Source of the DNA: Marine Group I thaumarchaeote | GTDB lineage: Archaea; Thermoproteota; Nitrososphaeria; Nitrososphaerales; Nitrosopumilaceae | Assembly (NCBI GenBank): GCA_013390785.1 | Contig: JACASW010000001.1 | Location: 1 to 64,000, forward strand | Direction: 5' to 3' | DNA: 64,000 nucleotides | Part shown: positions 1 to 11,560 of the stretch, in pieces | How positions within the stretch are numbered: the stretch's first letter is position 1 | How the letters are laid out: each line of letters opens with the position of its first letter | Program-made: the position numbers and the translations under genes | The notes under the pieces: generated by a model | What the model saw: only the letters and a program-made list of their open reading frames with translations | Told to the model about the DNA's origin: nothing | Databases searched by the model: none

Positions 1-2016
1 ATCAACCTTAGTGCCTTTTGGTATAGCAATCTGTAACAACAATCCACCATTGAGAGTTTTACTAATCTTGTTGCATCCTGTGATCTCTGCACTTTTTCCA
101 GTAAGACTTGATATCTTATCAATGTCAAGTACTATTCCCTCTGAATAAGTCTCAGTATCAGTTATTTGTTGGACAGAATTTTTTCCATATTTTTCAGCAT
201 CTAACGCAATAAATCTTTCAGATCCATCACTTTCAGTCATACTTACGATGATATTTATTCCAAGATCTTTACTTTTCTTTGTTGCAATATCTACAGCGGT
301 TTCAATTACCTTGTATAGGATCTGTTGTCCCTCATTGTTATTTTTGAATCCCAATATGCCGTAAATCGCATTCTGTAAGCCTACCAAGTTGATCACCAAA
401 GATACCGTACTACGTTGCATGTACAACGTGTCAGCAGCAAGTATTGGATTAACACCTAACCTGATAAGATTGGAGATATTTTTGTTACGCTTAGCCATAG
501 AGTCTAAGGCAGGTTTCATTAACAACGCAAGTCTTGCTCGAAAATAAGTTTCGTCTTTGTTTGATTCAAACGCCAGACGTGGTAGATTGATAGACAGTGA
601 ACCCAAATGTAATAGAGTTGAAGTTGAATTTTTTGGATGAGTTACTCCTTTTTGGGATGTATTATGTTTCGTAAACATTACTTTACCCCCAAGAGTAATA
701 ATTTCAGATATTGTTTGTGATACATCTGTTATCTTTCCCTTATCATAATCAATAACAAGTCCTATCTTTGGAATTGGTGTAAGCTTTGTGTATGTCTTGT
801 AGGCAGAAAGCACGGTTTTTACAATTTTTTGATCTATTCCTAATGGGATCCTAAATGATACCACTGTTGACATTTTGTCATAGCCCATAGTCGTAGAAGA
901 TGTTGTGAAGGAATCAACAAGTTTACGTTCAAGTTCAGGTAAATCTTTTGAATATTTTGAGAGTGATGGTATTAGATCATCTAGCACTACTTCCTGAGAA
1001 GCTTCCTTTGAGATGAGCGCTATTATCATAGATAATGCAGAAGATAGATTACTCAGTGTCTTAACTGATGGAATTCTGCAAACATTAAGGTATTTTCCTT
1101 TTAGATCTATGCCGTCTTCGATCAATGCTTTAACGTTTATGAATATAGTATCTGGTAAAATAGACCATAACCCAGGATTAGTGATATGAAGATCGCCTGA
1201 GAGATGTGCATCTGCTATATCTTTTGGAAGAGTGCTTGTGAGAAGATGCTCAGCAAATACAATTCTACCAGTCTTGAATAACAATCCCTCCACACCATTC
1301 TCTATATTCTCCGCGTTTGATACCATTTCTTGAACTTCAAATATAGGAAGCCCAACTCTGGCTAGTTTGTGTCTGTATTCTTCATGACCATGTTCTAAAA
1401 GTACTGAATTAACCAATTCACGAATCAGTGAACCTGTTAGATATGCAGTCTGATATTTGTAAATGCGATTTTCAACCTCTTCAGTTATTTTCTGTGCCAA
1501 TTCTAGTGGCAAACTCCCTTCACGAACTAGTGATTGGATTATTTTCTGAGAATTAAATTCCTCAATTGAGCTGTGTGATGTTCTAACATACATCTTGCCA
1601 CTTTCAATAATTGATCTTTCTTCGATCTGCCTTGCAAGGCTTAAAACAAGTTTGCCCAAATTTGTAATTGTATATCTTCGTTCTGACTTATTTAATGCCA
1701 CAAGTGATTGCCTTAATAATTTTCTTAAATGGTATGCAAACTTACCACTTTCTTTCTTTGATTTGAATCCAGCAAGAGATTTTAGTTCAGAATAGGTAAG
1801 CGGTCCCTTTGAGTTCAATATTCTTAATATATCAATTCTGTTTGGACTTGCCATAACGGAAAAGATCATTCTCACACGTTTGGAAGTGGATTGTAATACT
1901 TGGCTGCCTGATAATCCCTCATCTAAACTAAGTTCATCATCATCAAGATCACCCATATCCATATCAGATTCAAGATCGATCTCTTCTTCTAGATCTAATT
2001 TTTTGCTACTCCCCAA
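1..2016 (-). CDS. Winged-helix/ATP-cone/NrdD-like protein, partial (C-terminus beyond the window)
   Basis: 672 codons are visible and the frame runs off the left edge. The start is taken as TTG at 2016, about 60 bases downstream of a TATA-like stretch near 2075; no upstream in-frame ATG was found. Order: acidic tail (1-40), ArsR-like winged helix (about 45-135, with SPNRIDILRIL), ATP-cone (about 145-228, RTSHSSIEEFNSQKI), then a region alignable by eye to anaerobic ribonucleoside-triphosphate reductase NrdD (HLSGDLHITNPG near 271, LSINLPRLAF and TESDGSERF later). NrdD normally has a CCR-type thiyl-radical site before the INLPR segment; here that stretch reads FTKHNTSQKG, and only two Cys are seen in all 672 residues. 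The glycyl-radical region lies outside the window. I infer a regulator or degenerate reductase; an active enzyme is less likely. Family assignment is fairly sure, function is not. Confidence 0.8.
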   Translation of the reverse strand, partial: MGSSKKLDLEEEIDLESDMDMGDLDDDELSLDEGLSGSQVLQSTSKRVRMIFSVMASPNRIDILRILNSKGPLTYSELKSLAGFKSKKESGKFAYHLRKLLRQSLVALNKSERRYTITNLGKLVLSLARQIEERSIIESGKMYVRTSHSSIEEFNSQKIIQSLVREGSLPLELAQKITEEVENRIYKYQTAYLTGSLIRELVNSVLLEHGHEEYRHKLARVGLPIFEVQEMVSNAENIENGVEGLLFKTGRIVFAEHLLTSTLPKDIADAHLSGDLHITNPGLWSILPDTIFINVKALIEDGIDLKGKYLNVCRIPSVKTLSNLSSALSMIIALISKEASQEVVLDDLIPSLSKYSKDLPELERKLVDSFTTSSTTMGYDKMSTVVSFRIPLGIDQKIVKTVLSAYKTYTKLTPIPKIGLVIDYDKGKITDVSQTISEIITLGGKVMFTKHNTSQKGVTHPKNSTSTLLHLGSLSINLPRLAFESNKDETYFRARLALLMKPALDSMAKRNKNISNLIRLGVNPILAADTLYMQRSTVSLVINLVGLQNAIYGILGFKNNNEGQQILYKVIETAVDIATKKSKDLGINIIVSMTESDGSERFIALDAEKYGKNSVQQITDTETYSEGIVLDIDKISSLTGKSAEITGCNKISKTLNGGLLLQIAIPKGTKVD

Positions 2017-2118
2017 TATGGTTATTAAAAAAATAGAAGTAATTAAGGTTTGTAACCTGATCCAACTTTTAATTTTTATAGTAAAAAACAATACTTGGAT
2101 CTAAAAGAAAAAATCAAA

Positions 2119-2280
2119 TCACTTTTTTTCTACGTCTAGTGAAAATTCAGCTGATGAGAGAGTTTGTCCGCAAGATGGACATTTGTTATTATAATGTTTC
2201 ATAACATCTTTCACAGATTTAAGCATCTGCATTGTAGAAATTTTTTCGCCGCATTTTCCACAGGTTACATCAACAGACAT
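2119..2280 (-). CDS. Small zinc-ribbon protein (53 aa)
   Basis: An ATG-started reading frame with two CxxC knuckles (C7/C10 in CGKC and C34/C37 in CPSC), the usual layout of a single treble-clef or zinc-ribbon module. The 23-residue linker between the knuckles is basic and helix-like. It lies between the NrdD-like gene and the DUF35/thiolase pair, on the same strand. The role is unknown; such short ribbons in archaea are often nucleic-acid or protein binding. The start is supported by the ATG being the first codon after an in-frame region lacking alternatives. Confidence 0.7.
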   Translation of the reverse strand: MSVDVTCGKCGEKISTMQMLKSVKDVMKHYNNKCPSCGQTLSSAEFSLDVEKK

Positions 2281-2349
2281 GTATAAACATCTGGTGTTAA
2301 ATCGTATTAAATTTTAAAAAATTTTTTTTCATAATATACTAAAAATGAT

Positions 2350-6267: not shown

Positions 6268-6542
6268 TTACGAAATCTTCATGATTCCGTTTGAGATTAG
6301 CCATTGAAGTCCAGATACAAACGAACCGTCGTCTATCTGTCCGTCAGCCCACCATCCTGCGTTGTTCTTTATCCAACCTGGAATTACATCATCAGAACCT
6401 GTTCCCTGTTCAGTTGGTGGTATTGTCATTACATTGTTTGAGATAAGCCACTGTATGCCAGATACAAACGAACCGTCGTCTATCTGTCCGTCAGCCCACC
6501 ATCCTGCGTTGTTCTTTATCCAACCAGGGATAGAAGTTTCAG
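6268..6542 (-). repeat. Left arm of a perfect 275-bp inverted repeat
   Basis: Reading base by base, 6268-6542 is the exact reverse complement of 8418-8692; identity stops at the stop codon on one side and just upstream of the first Trp-rich repeat on the other. Inside this arm, 6311-6378 and 6458-6525 are identical 68-bp direct repeats coding the core of the two protein repeats. Confidence 0.95.
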
Positions 6543-6948
6543 CTTGACCAACATTAATTGTAAGCGTAGCGGTTTCCAAGGGAATTGGTTGGAATAGTAT
6601 TCCTTCCATTTCAATGTGTACTATGTGTGAACCATTTTCAGAAAATTCCACTGGAATTGTTATGGAACCTGGTGATGTATGCAAAAGACGCGCCATGGGT
6701 CCAAACACATAGTCACCATCATTTGTTACACTTACACGATAGTCTATGTGCAGTTGAATTTTTTCAGTACCTGATTTTAGAAAGTCAATCTTTAGTTTTG
6801 TAGGTTCTTCAGTGTTTGGTATTGCAGGTATGGTGTAAATTCCTACATCAAGTGTTCCATCACTAGTTGAGACAATTTGATCATATTCAGCTGCAAAAGC
6901 AGGATAAACCATGAAAGGAACCAAGAATAATACGTAAAGCAGTTTCAA
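6268..6948 (-). CDS. Exported protein with two tryptophan-rich C-terminal repeats
   Basis: 226 residues. A signal peptide (MKLLYVLFLVPFMVYPAFAA) is followed by a beta-rich extracellular domain (about 25-135) and two copies of a repeat starting PGWIKNNAGWWADGQ and ending in a WLIS helix (about 140-226). The repeat is familiar from many surface proteins of ammonia-oxidising archaea, function unknown. The last 275 bases, including the stop, are an exact inverted copy of the end of the divergent gene at 7037-8692. The two genes share an 88-base promoter region. Confidence 0.85.
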   Translation of the reverse strand: MKLLYVLFLVPFMVYPAFAAEYDQIVSTSDGTLDVGIYTIPAIPNTEEPTKLKIDFLKSGTEKIQLHIDYRVSVTNDGDYVFGPMARLLHTSPGSITIPVEFSENGSHIVHIEMEGILFQPIPLETATLTINVGQAETSIPGWIKNNAGWWADGQIDDGSFVSGIQWLISNNVMTIPPTEQGTGSDDVIPGWIKNNAGWWADGQIDDGSFVSGLQWLISNGIMKIS

Positions 6949-7036: not shown

Positions 7037-8692
7037 TTGTTGTACAATAAAATAATTATTCTAAGTGTATTAGCTTGTCTTTCTTGCATTCCACTGTTTA
7101 GTGATGATGTATTTGGACATGGTCTTGGTGCGGATCAGGCACCACCAATAGACTTTGCTGGTATGCTGGTTACAGTTTCTACAGTCATGGATCCATCAGA
7201 CATTACTGTAGGCGAAGTTGACAGAGCTAATTTGCAGATACGATTCTTTGATCAGGGCACTGATACAAATCTAGAATCTGTTACGTATAGAGTTCAGGTA
7301 TTCCAAGCTGGTGAACTTCTTGCAAGAGAAATTTTCTATGACAAAGACGGAGAGCTAAATGTACAGATTAGACCACAAGACCAATGCTTCGATCCTGAGC
7401 CTTGGAGATGTACTATCTATCAGGGAGCAAGAGACCCTATCAGTGGAGGCTTGTATGCCCAAGGTAGTGGTGTTCCTGTGATTCAGGGTCCCATCTTTAC
7501 TAAAGGTGGGCTTTACAACATTAGCGTAGTAATTGAGGGTGCAACCAGTCCCAAAACACTAGTTGCTGAACCATTAGTATTTGACACGTTTGTAAGTATA
7601 GCACAAGAACAATACTTTGCCATTCCAGAAGCATTTGGAGTTCCTGTAACAATCAAAACATATTATGACGATGTTTCAAACTTTGAATTCAAAGAGTCTG
7701 ACAAATCAATTTCATTTCAGATGCCTTTCGATTGGGCACCAGATTACATTGATCTAGTTGCGGTTGTTCACGAGGAGATACGTATCCCAAAAAACTACGA
7801 GCCATATAGTATTGAGAACGACTTTATTGGATATGTTGATGGTGTGCAGGTTGACAACAGAGCTCTACTAGTTGATCCATATTCGTCAGATACAGAAAAC
7901 ATAATTCATTTTTTGGTTACTGGTAGTGAGCTAAAAAGAATAAACGATGTTTTAGGTCCTGACCATTATGACAGTAAAGAAATGTTCTTCGAACTTGTAC
8001 CACAAGGACAGACAACAGAAAATGGTTTTTCCACTACGTTTGAAAACGGATACAAGGCTAATGTAGCGTGGAAACGTACTTACGGTGCAGGTACTGAGAT
8101 ACCATTTCAGATCACATTCTTTGATGCCAACGGAGAATTGTTAAAAGATGTCAATTATGCAATTTCACTTTTGGATCCTAACGGACAACAAATCTATCTA
8201 AATATTGGAGACGAAACAGCACCATATCTAGGAGTAAAGGCATCTGAGGGAATTGATACACAAACAGTCTACATTTTGTCTGAAGGGATATACACTATGA
8301 GTCTAGCGCTAACAGGAACTGGTATTACAAACTGGGAAAGCGTTGTTCTGTCTGAAGCAGTATTTGAGATTGGAAAAGCTGGAGAACCTATTGCACCAAT
8401 TCCAGAATTGTATGGGTCTGAAACTTCTATCCCTGGTTGGATAAAGAACAACGCAGGATGGTGGGCTGACGGACAGATAGACGACGGTTCGTTTGTATCT
8501 GGCATACAGTGGCTTATCTCAAACAATGTAATGACAATACCACCAACTGAACAGGGAACAGGTTCTGATGATGTAATTCCAGGTTGGATAAAGAACAACG
8601 CAGGATGGTGGGCTGACGGACAGATAGACGACGGTTCGTTTGTATCTGGACTTCAATGGCTAATCTCAAACGGAATCATGAAGATTTCGTAA
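7037..8692 (+). CDS. Large exported protein with two tryptophan-rich C-terminal repeats
   Basis: 551 residues from a TTG start. The N-terminus is a signal peptide (about 1-24) followed by a His/Gly segment (VFGHGLGAD). The body looks like several beta-sandwich modules (about 30-455) without catalytic motifs I recognise. The C-terminus carries the same two PGWIKNNAGWW repeats as the divergent gene, joined by a TIPPTEQGTGSDD linker, identical at DNA level over 275 bases. It probably sits at the cell surface. It is transcribed divergently from the 226-residue protein and converges on the CopC-CopD gene, 6 bases apart. Confidence 0.85.
   Translation: MLYNKIIILSVLACLSCIPLFSDDVFGHGLGADQAPPIDFAGMLVTVSTVMDPSDITVGEVDRANLQIRFFDQGTDTNLESVTYRVQVFQAGELLAREIFYDKDGELNVQIRPQDQCFDPEPWRCTIYQGARDPISGGLYAQGSGVPVIQGPIFTKGGLYNISVVIEGATSPKTLVAEPLVFDTFVSIAQEQYFAIPEAFGVPVTIKTYYDDVSNFEFKESDKSISFQMPFDWAPDYIDLVAVVHEEIRIPKNYEPYSIENDFIGYVDGVQVDNRALLVDPYSSDTENIIHFLVTGSELKRINDVLGPDHYDSKEMFFELVPQGQTTENGFSTTFENGYKANVAWKRTYGAGTEIPFQITFFDANGELLKDVNYAISLLDPNGQQIYLNIGDETAPYLGVKASEGIDTQTVYILSEGIYTMSLALTGTGITNWESVVLSEAVFEIGKAGEPIAPIPELYGSETSIPGWIKNNAGWWADGQIDDGSFVSGIQWLISNNVMTIPPTEQGTGSDDVIPGWIKNNAGWWADGQIDDGSFVSGLQWLISNGIMKIS
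8418..8692 (+). repeat. Right arm of the perfect 275-bp inverted repeat
   Basis: Exact reverse complement of 6268-6542. It contains identical 68-bp direct repeats at 8435-8502 and 8582-8649. The exact identity, including synonymous positions, implies recent duplication or ongoing gene conversion. Confidence 0.95.
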
Positions 8693-8698
8693 ATCAGA

Positions 8699-11560
8699 TT
8701 AGCCTAACATCTTATCTATTCTTCTTTTGTCATTAACGCTCTTGACAAAGAATAATGATGAAACCACTATACCACCGGCAATCAACGGTGAAACAATTTC
8801 AGCGTAATTGAAACCAGACTGATTAACCCCATCTGTTACAGTTCTAGCCTGTCCAGGAACACTGCTAATCGAAACTACTCCAAGCTTCTTGGTTCTTTGC
8901 TCTACAAACCAAATATCTCCATTATCATCTGCGGTAATAAACTGCGTAAAGCTCTCAAGAGTTGGAATAGGAATTTCGATCAGTTGATCATTATATGGAT
9001 CATAAACTCCTAGTTCATCAATCACATGTTGTCCAAACCAAATATTGTCATACTTGTCAATAGCCATACCAAATGGGAGTGATTCTGGGTTGGGGACATT
9101 TACATGATCAAATGTTTCTAATACTGGATCAAACTTGGTTATTCCCGGACCTATGTGTTCGGCAATCCATAGTGACCCGGACTTGTCAAATAACAAAGCA
9201 AATGGTTCATCTAATGGAGTATCAGGTGCAAATTCAGTAATCTCAAAAGTTTTAGAATCTACAACTCCTATCTTACCTGACAGTGCTTCTGCAAACCATA
9301 TGTCACCATTATCATCTAAGAGTAGAGCAGATGGACCAGATTCCGATGTTGGAAGTCTCAAAAATTGTTCAAACTCTTTAGTATTCTGATTGTACATTAG
9401 TAGCATATCTCTGTCCACTACTCCAATCCAGATGTTATTATCAAAATCAACTTTGAGTGCTATAGGAATTGAGTATGGTGATGCTGCGGTAAGTGATGGG
9501 ATTTCTATTACCTCAAATTTTTCTGTCTTTGGATCAAAGTTTCCAATCTTAGAATTTGGAGTATCAGTAAACCAAATCTTGCCATCATGATCTATGTCAA
9601 GAAATATTGTGGAAATTCCAAAAAAATCATATGAACTGAATTGTTTGTCGTCTAGTGTAAACTTCCAAAGTCGTGGTTCTGATGCATCACTAATCCATAT
9701 TGTATTATCACCATCATATCTAGGGTAAAGAGGCGCCGAGTCAGCTTCTGGAAAGTCATACTCTGTAATTTCAGTTCGAATATCTGTAAGAGTTGGTTTT
9801 ACTAACACATCAAATATCACACCCTCGTTTGCTGCTTGCGTCCTCTGTGCCTCAATCTCTATCTGCCATGTACCCGCAAATCCAAACGTAGCTTCTCCCT
9901 CAAATTCTGTTATCCCACTACTTGATTGTGATTCTATTGTTGAAATTTCAAGTGGTGATATGCTCCTTTGTGGATTGGAAACTTTGATCTTCAAGCCAGA
10001 AATATCTGAAAATGGATCACCATCAATAGCAGAAACAATAACGTTGATTGTGTTAGAACCTACACCTACAGGTAAAACTGAAACATCAAACTTTGCCTGT
10101 TCTGAAAACAAGATAGATGAAAATCCAAACGTTGCAGTCTGTGCCTCAGCTGTTTGTACTTCTCCAGCTGGAAGGGAGGAATTGACAAGAAGGGATACAA
10201 CACCAAGAAGTATGATGCCTGTTATGGCAGAAGCTTTGATTGGTTTTTTAATTTTCTTATATGCTAACGCCTCTATGGTAGGTGGTTCAAATCCTTTCTT
10301 TGATACATCAGGAGGTTTTTCACCAAAGCCGAATACACCAGCACCTATTGCCCCACCTAGATTTTTTACTGCAGGCCTTTGAACTTTAAACTGGAAATAT
10401 CCACCCAATCCAATCATTACCAAGGCTAGGAAAATCTTTGCAAATATCAAGAACCCATAAGTTGAATTGGTAATTGATGTGACATTACTCTCTAAGAACC
10501 ACAAAAGAGTTGGTCCAGTAATAATGAGTATACCCAATGCAATTGTAATCATGCCTGAATATCGTGGCAAAATTGCAAGCACTATTTTCTCTTTTTCCAT
10601 CCAGTCCAGTTTTGCAAGTGTAGGTAATATTACAAAAGCAAGAAAAATTACGCCGCCTATCCATACAGATGACAACAAATTGTGTACATAATCTAAGATC
10701 ATTGGTGCTGCAAGCTCAGTTGCTGTACCATGTCCTAACATAGTTGTTGTAAATATTAGTACCAATGATGCAACAAGCATTGGTACATGTTTTTTACTTG
10801 TTAGACGTGGTTTTCTTTCCATCCAAAACCAAATACCAAGAAGAATGATTGTTATGATCATTCGTATTAGCCAAGTAGCACCGAATGAAGTACCGATTAC
10901 ATCAATTGGAGATGTTTCAAGCCGAAAAGTTTGAACCGCTACCATAATAAAATTTGATGCAAGTACACCAACAAGAGCAACTCCTGTTATTTTTGAAAAT
11001 TTTGAACGATATGTTCGATTTATCAATATGAGATTTTCTTTTCCAAAGTGTTTTCGTTGTGTACCCCAAATTGCAATAGCAGATATTGCACAACCTAGAA
11101 CAACTGTTTGTCCGACAATTCCCGGAAATCTTGCCGCTGCTTCAGGTAGAAATGTTGTTTCTGATTCTTCTTGTGTTTCTAAAAGTGAGATGTCAGCATT
11201 GGCTTCACCTGCACCAAAGATGACAGCAGCGCGTACCAAATGTCCATCCACTTTTGATAACACTTTGCTAGTTACAGTGTAGACACCATCCTCAAGTGGT
11301 GATGTTGTAATTACTAGAGAATTTTCTCCTTCATAATATGCAGTATCTCCATTATCTATTTGATTTCCATTACCATCAAATACCTTCAATTCAGAAAAGT
11401 CAATCTCAACTGCTTCAGAATATTTTGTGATGATTTGTGTTGTTCCAATTGCTGCATTTCCTGCTTGGGATGGTTCAGAATCAAGCAAAAATGGATGTGC
11501 GTATGCTGATGGAACCCCAATTATCAAAATCAAAAATGCTAAAAGAAGAAACTTGTTCAT
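8699..11560 (-). CDS. CopC-CopD copper protein fused to a Vgb/NHL-like beta-propeller
   Basis: 953 residues from ATG 11560; the TATA-like TTTAAATT near 11589 argues for this start over an ATG at 11584. After the signal peptide (1-21, ending SAYA) the mature protein would begin with His22, the copper-binding N-terminal His of CopC (HPFLLDSEPS), with the second CopC signature VDGHLVR near 105. A CopD-type membrane region with about eight segments follows (about 145-470). The C-terminal half has repeated W-F/W-I plus D-x-D-G-x-I-W-F blades like virginiamycin-B-lyase propellers, then one final membrane segment. It likely handles copper across the membrane, supplying the oxidases of ammonia oxidation. 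The propeller fusion is unusual. Confidence 0.88.
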   Translation of the reverse strand: MNKFLLLAFLILIIGVPSAYAHPFLLDSEPSQAGNAAIGTTQIITKYSEAVEIDFSELKVFDGNGNQIDNGDTAYYEGENSLVITTSPLEDGVYTVTSKVLSKVDGHLVRAAVIFGAGEANADISLLETQEESETTFLPEAAARFPGIVGQTVVLGCAISAIAIWGTQRKHFGKENLILINRTYRSKFSKITGVALVGVLASNFIMVAVQTFRLETSPIDVIGTSFGATWLIRMIITIILLGIWFWMERKPRLTSKKHVPMLVASLVLIFTTTMLGHGTATELAAPMILDYVHNLLSSVWIGGVIFLAFVILPTLAKLDWMEKEKIVLAILPRYSGMITIALGILIITGPTLLWFLESNVTSITNSTYGFLIFAKIFLALVMIGLGGYFQFKVQRPAVKNLGGAIGAGVFGFGEKPPDVSKKGFEPPTIEALAYKKIKKPIKASAITGIILLGVVSLLVNSSLPAGEVQTAEAQTATFGFSSILFSEQAKFDVSVLPVGVGSNTINVIVSAIDGDPFSDISGLKIKVSNPQRSISPLEISTIESQSSSGITEFEGEATFGFAGTWQIEIEAQRTQAANEGVIFDVLVKPTLTDIRTEITEYDFPEADSAPLYPRYDGDNTIWISDASEPRLWKFTLDDKQFSSYDFFGISTIFLDIDHDGKIWFTDTPNSKIGNFDPKTEKFEVIEIPSLTAASPYSIPIALKVDFDNNIWIGVVDRDMLLMYNQNTKEFEQFLRLPTSESGPSALLLDDNGDIWFAEALSGKIGVVDSKTFEITEFAPDTPLDEPFALLFDKSGSLWIAEHIGPGITKFDPVLETFDHVNVPNPESLPFGMAIDKYDNIWFGQHVIDELGVYDPYNDQLIEIPIPTLESFTQFITADDNGDIWFVEQRTKKLGVVSISSVPGQARTVTDGVNQSGFNYAEIVSPLIAGGIVVSSLFFVKSVNDKRRIDKMLG

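Follow-up and report, generated by a model that had tools for sequence, protein, structure and literature searches.

What is the function of a gene that joins an ArsR-like winged helix and an ATP-cone to the body of an anaerobic (class III) ribonucleotide reductase (RNR), NrdD, without the residues that mark a working enzyme? Such a gene, termed REG here, lies at the left edge of the window, a stretch of 64,000 nucleotides from a Marine Group I thaumarchaeote. The first-pass annotation of this DNA had proposed a nucleotide-sensing transcription factor built from a dead reductase. Loss of catalytic motifs, linkage to RNR genes and conservation of the winged helix support that proposal, and we consider it likely that REG is a one-component, nucleotide-sensing regulator of RNR genes that descends from a dead class III RNR. 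Its ligand, its DNA binding and the regulation itself, including the direction of control, are inferred and unproven, with no experiment, expression or binding data behind them. The architecture of REG, its missing catalytic motifs, its separate branch in the tree, its near-universal conservation within the class, its linkage to RNR genes and the conserved promoter elements nearby are observed. The gene is laid out in the window as follows.

1..2016, minus strand: REG gene (winged helix, ATP-cone and pseudo-NrdD); 672 residues visible of ~720, 3′ end on contig G000:C17
1642..1866, minus strand: winged helix DNA-binding domain (DUF7347 / HTH_20, ArsR-like), from profile matches
1375..1593, minus strand: ATP-cone (PF03477), found at the same interval in the genome search
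1..1356, minus strand: NrdD-like barrel region, catalytic residues lost (PF13597; model of the relative L002)
577..684, minus strand: stretch matching the thiyl-radical CC(R) cysteine region of NrdD, shortened and free of Cys (alignment with true NrdDs)
1..55, minus strand: overlap of the window edge with contig C17, which carries the gene's Zn-ribbon end and stop codon, followed by nrdJ

The reading frame on the minus strand spans bases 1..2091 and runs off the left edge of the window; the TTG at 2016 is the likely start, an inference that agrees with the start assumed earlier. All domains of the proposed combination scored above their Pfam cut-offs. In profile searches, the reductase region matched NRDD (PF13597) at E=1.5e-18 (67 bits, cut-off 26), the winged helix matched DUF7347 at 2.8e-10 (40.8 bits, cut-off 27.6) and HTH_20 at 7.9e-8 (32.6 bits, cut-off 27), and the ATP-cone matched PF03477 at E=2.3e-8. 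With its HTH_20 and DUF7347 matches REG has the ArsR-like winged helix of ArsR-type regulators; the ArsR/SmtB metalloregulator profile NF033788 was not met (24.8 bits, cut-off 55). The score of 59 bits against the NrdD equivalog TIGR02487 is likewise far below the 326 needed. Only two Cys occur in the visible part, within NVCRIPS and ITGCNKIS, and there is none ahead of INLPR, which confirms the reported absence of CCR cysteines there. The source had been taken for an ammonia oxidiser, and its genome indeed encodes an archaeal AmoA.

The left edge of the window is a true contig end (G000:C2:1), and the missing part of the gene was found on another contig of the same genome. Contig G000:C17 overlaps the edge by 55 bases and carries the last 48 residues of REG, ending in EIKKVIEKGASITSSFKPVMQVPICGNCGFKDEKLGDKCPTCKSTYII and a stop codon. 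This joint rests on the 55-base overlap and on the identical gene order in the relatives L002 and L003. The C-terminus read on C17 is a Zn-ribbon with the stop directly after it, and complete REG proteins of related genomes end in the same way, their stop codon following an NrdD-type Zn-ribbon (CGxCGFKDE...DKCPxCKSxYxx). Thus the completed gene has no C-terminal glycyl-radical loop, one of the features that could have overturned the dead-reductase reading. Another, an activase gene just beyond the left edge, is also missing: the next gene on C17 gives a PF02867 match and is, judged from its sequence, a B12-type class II RNR, nrdJ (TIGR02504 family, via the relative in L038). In that relative (G040, same genus; REG at 8820..10895) even the Zn-ribbon is lost, the protein ending in ...SSFKPNQIK, and the ribbon looks dispensable there.

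The loss of reductase catalysis extends well beyond the window. All 157 full-length REGs in our census have the winged helix and 152 have the Zn-ribbon (CxxC...CxxC), while neither the NxN flap, a substrate motif of NrdD (PMC11226230), nor the RVxGYY glycyl motif occurs in any of them. A CC pair was seen once, in L139, at a spacing unlike that of NrdD. The 11 true NrdDs from REG loci show the converse pattern (winged helix 0, Zn-ribbon 10, NxN flap 9, glycyl motif 10, CC 11); these neighbours of REG keep their catalytic motifs. When REG rows were inspected in an alignment against true NrdDs that adjoin REG in Bathyarchaeia, the CC motif, the RPFC cysteine and the RVTGYY loop were all absent, and no thiyl-radical cysteines could be aligned in the full-length protein. 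A decayed remnant of the glycyl loop is kept in some Bathyarchaeia REGs and is wholly gone in ammonia oxidisers, and the PF13597 match ends at ~529 of 562 in most copies. The activase NrdG scored above cut-off in none of 61 Nitrososphaeria genomes. Weak NrdG matches across the class all fell below the cut-off; the single one inspected was QueE-like, and the recurrent match is ~240 aa long. REG was therefore rejected as an NrdD, failing on four of the five marks tested: thiyl cysteines, NxN flap, glycyl-radical loop and NrdG activase.

The overall fold appears to have outlived the chemistry. AlphaFold models were obtained for the ammonia-oxidiser REG of L002, which is 88% identical to that of the window (pLDDT 80.7), and for a Bathyarchaeia REG (pLDDT 84.6). 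Foldseek returned class III RNRs as the best PDB matches of both, with E values of 1e-20 and 2.5e-25, respectively, in line with the NrdD-like nature first read from the sequence. By these predictions, together with the CxxC...CxxC pairs, REG is a class III RNR barrel with a Zn site.

REG is widespread. It was present in 285 of 300 sampled Nitrososphaeria genomes, a degree of conservation on which the idea of a decaying pseudogene was rejected, and in two thirds (240 of 363) of the good genomes sampled across the phylum. Families f23, f29, f31, f35 and f38 had no REG match among the genomes listed. In a scan of named genomes, nearly all of the best 80 matches listed were labelled Bathyarchaeia. 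A maximum-likelihood tree separates REG from true NrdD by a branch with 100/100 support, and G013, a genome of family f16, carries both forms. Although this tree does not show the rooting, it is most simply read as a dead form that arose once.

Conservation is uneven along the protein. Between L002 and two other genera, identity is 100% in the winged helix (over ~95 residues), 88% in the ATP-cone and ~60% in the barrel, so selection seems strongest on DNA binding and next on the cone. The FAYHL motif of the winged helix recurs in 157 of 157 full-length REGs. The cone reads VRTSH..EEF..KI, with VRTSH where KRDG is the usual signature. Because the true NrdD of L103 has VRTS as well, we regard it as a lineage form and not as a broken cone; nucleotide binding is plausible on this inference and has not been shown.

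The genomic neighbours tie REG to nucleotide supply. In ammonia oxidisers, nrdJ lies directly downstream on the same strand in 53 distinct Nitrososphaeria loci, typically after a gap of 70-440 bases; in three further loci nrdJ is convergent with REG, the arrangement of family f18. Bathyarchaeia-type genomes have REG followed by a true nrdD in 10 loci, eight of them with a glutaredoxin gene between, nrdJ downstream in one locus, and pyrB/pyrI convergent with REG in 68. REG has neither RNR nor pyrB neighbours in families f16 and f19. A NAC-like gene abuts REG in f19 and stands just beyond nrdJ in f18, as if nrdJ had dropped out of the f19 locus. Since the gene usually adjoins a working RNR or another nucleotide gene, REG probably serves archaea as a sensor-switch for the supply of DNA precursors.

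Several details of these loci were recorded along the way. REG and pyrB, which encodes aspartate carbamoyltransferase, stand tail-to-tail in most Bathyarchaeia (L093-L108 and L129-L197), often within 10-30 bases of each other, and several of these loci have nrdD between the two. In L013 (G076) the gap between REG and nrdJ is ~350 bases longer than in the near-identical L012, which may reflect a small insertion. Directly upstream of REG in the window, on the same strand, bases 2119..2283 (minus strand) encode a zinc-ribbon-like protein of 54 aa with two CxxC; the same coding stretch precedes REG in other ammonia oxidisers, and its zinc-ribbon Pfam matches are sub-threshold only.

Candidate operators were sought in the promoters of the adjoining RNR genes, with no binding data to confirm any of them. 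In same-family (Nitrosopumilaceae-like) genomes, a palindrome, TATGAANTTCATA, lies upstream of a TATA-like box in the nrdJ promoter, beside a second, imperfect inverted element, CGGTGTNAA-N5-TTGA, whose arms are conserved and whose spacer varies. Searched genome-wide in 10 same-family genomes, the palindrome occurred in one to three copies in nine, and one copy fell in the nrdJ promoter in eight of the 10; the remaining seven copies were scattered at unrelated genes. These genomes share ancestry, and such counts lend support without amounting to a probability. The palindrome is absent from the closest relatives, L002 and L003, and from the window's own genome, and most other Nitrososphaeria families inspected did not show it. 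An initial operator pattern, GKTGTNAANNNNNTTGANY, was discarded as a genome-wide signal, being about as frequent as its reversed control and informative by position only.

The candidate operators differ between lineages. In some Bathyarchaeia, TATACAAAATTTTATAC, a TTATACAA direct repeat that overlaps the TATA-like box, precedes grx-nrdD; this is its only genome copy in G369 and, at one mismatch, in G502. A search of 16 genomes failed to find the element in 12, and unrelated genes accounted for three of its five matches. Upstream of REG itself, a search for TGTCAA half-sites found hardly any and gave no candidate operator, which leaves autoregulation by a TGTCAA element unsupported.

Could REG act on reductases without controlling their genes? 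A pseudo-reductase might bind NrdJ (or NrdD) and tune its activity or oligomer, the winged helix serving for dimerisation or nucleoid tethering, and adjacency to an RNR gene and a fold and ATP-cone common to RNRs would suit such a modulator. However, no part of the protein is as conserved as the DNA-binding domain, which is unchanged between genera, and pairing with two RNR classes suits control at the DNA better than a specific protein interface. We think direct modulation unlikely; linkage to two RNR classes and the extreme conservation of the winged helix together support a regulator of RNR genes. REG might also sense nucleotides and act mainly on pyrimidine or DNA-replication genes, its RNR adjacency being a historical remnant. 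The many convergent pyrB/pyrI loci and the lack of RNR neighbours in f16 and f19 speak for this. Yet REG is repeatedly linked to RNR genes, and to more than one class of them, the promoters of those genes contain conserved elements, and convergent pyrB and REG have no common promoter, all of which makes such targets very unlikely.

That REG is still an active reductase, or another enzyme with unusual chemistry, deserves hardly any credence, even though the rules of class III are not absolute: in structures of the T. maritima class III RNR no cysteine is suitably placed (PMC4390871). In REG the cysteines, the NxN flap and the glycyl loop are lost together, NrdG stays below cut-off, and a B12-type nrdJ is present.

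Under the preferred reading, that of a nucleotide-sensing regulator of RNR genes, a class III RNR would have been fused to an N-terminal winged helix and would then have shed the thiyl cysteines, substrate flap and glycyl loop of its radical chemistry, while the ATP-cone, the barrel and the structural Zn-ribbon were retained as a sensing and dimerising body. A dimer formed through the old NrdD interface could place its pair of winged helices on a symmetric operator within an RNR promoter. ATP or dATP in the cone would alter the oligomer and so DNA binding, as in NrdR and in the P. copri NrdD, in which these nucleotides on the cone shift the balance between dimer and tetramer (PMC11226230); dNTPs at the old specificity site may also be sensed. 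Given the rest, repression at high dATP is the likelier sign of control, favoured by the overlap of the Bathyarchaeia element with the core promoter. The elements of ammonia oxidisers lie further upstream and would also fit activation. A broader claim, that a complete class III RNR became a phylum-wide transcription factor, sensing the dNTP pool through its own allosteric sites and controlling whichever RNR class each lineage uses (B12-dependent nrdJ or glycyl-radical nrdD), is one that we favour with some reserve.

Enzyme-derived one-component regulators such as BirA and PutA likewise join a DNA-binding domain to an enzyme that senses a metabolite of its own pathway. Those enzymes stay active, whereas REG has lost its catalytic residues, and the enzyme family in REG is RNR. 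With NrdD, REG shares the barrel fold, the ATP-cone, the C-terminal Zn-ribbon and a common ancestry; it differs in lacking the thiyl cysteines, NxN flap and glycyl-radical loop, in having a winged helix and in its separate branch. NrdR resembles REG in joining an ATP-cone sensor to a DNA-binding domain, and in controlling RNR genes of several classes, which is presumed for REG (PMC9110341, PMC12176259). The suggestion that REG is an archaeal analogue of NrdR stands as a functional hypothesis and fails as to architecture and profile: NrdR is a small protein with an N-terminal Zn-ribbon and an ATP-cone, whereas in REG an ArsR-like winged helix is joined to an entire dead class III RNR, and the NrdR profile TIGR00244 had no match in the window's genome and none above cut-off in 61 genomes of the class. 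No description of the REG architecture was found in the open-access literature, subscription papers being outside the search. If our reading is right, REG is an ATP-cone RNR regulator that works much as NrdR does and whose build we have not seen recorded.

Gene-level control of dNTP supply is little known in archaea, where NrdR is rare (PMC9110341). The anatomy of REG, its genomic position and the neighbouring promoter elements point to such control in ammonia oxidisers and Bathyarchaeia, and would, if this is true, make REG an example of a radical enzyme converted to a transcription factor. Elsewhere in the window, 6268..6948 (minus strand) and 7037..8692 (plus strand) encode divergent, secreted-looking proteins that share a long repeat end (IPGWIKNNAGWWADGQIDDGSF...); the two ends are identical over ~85 residues, possibly through recent duplication or gene conversion.
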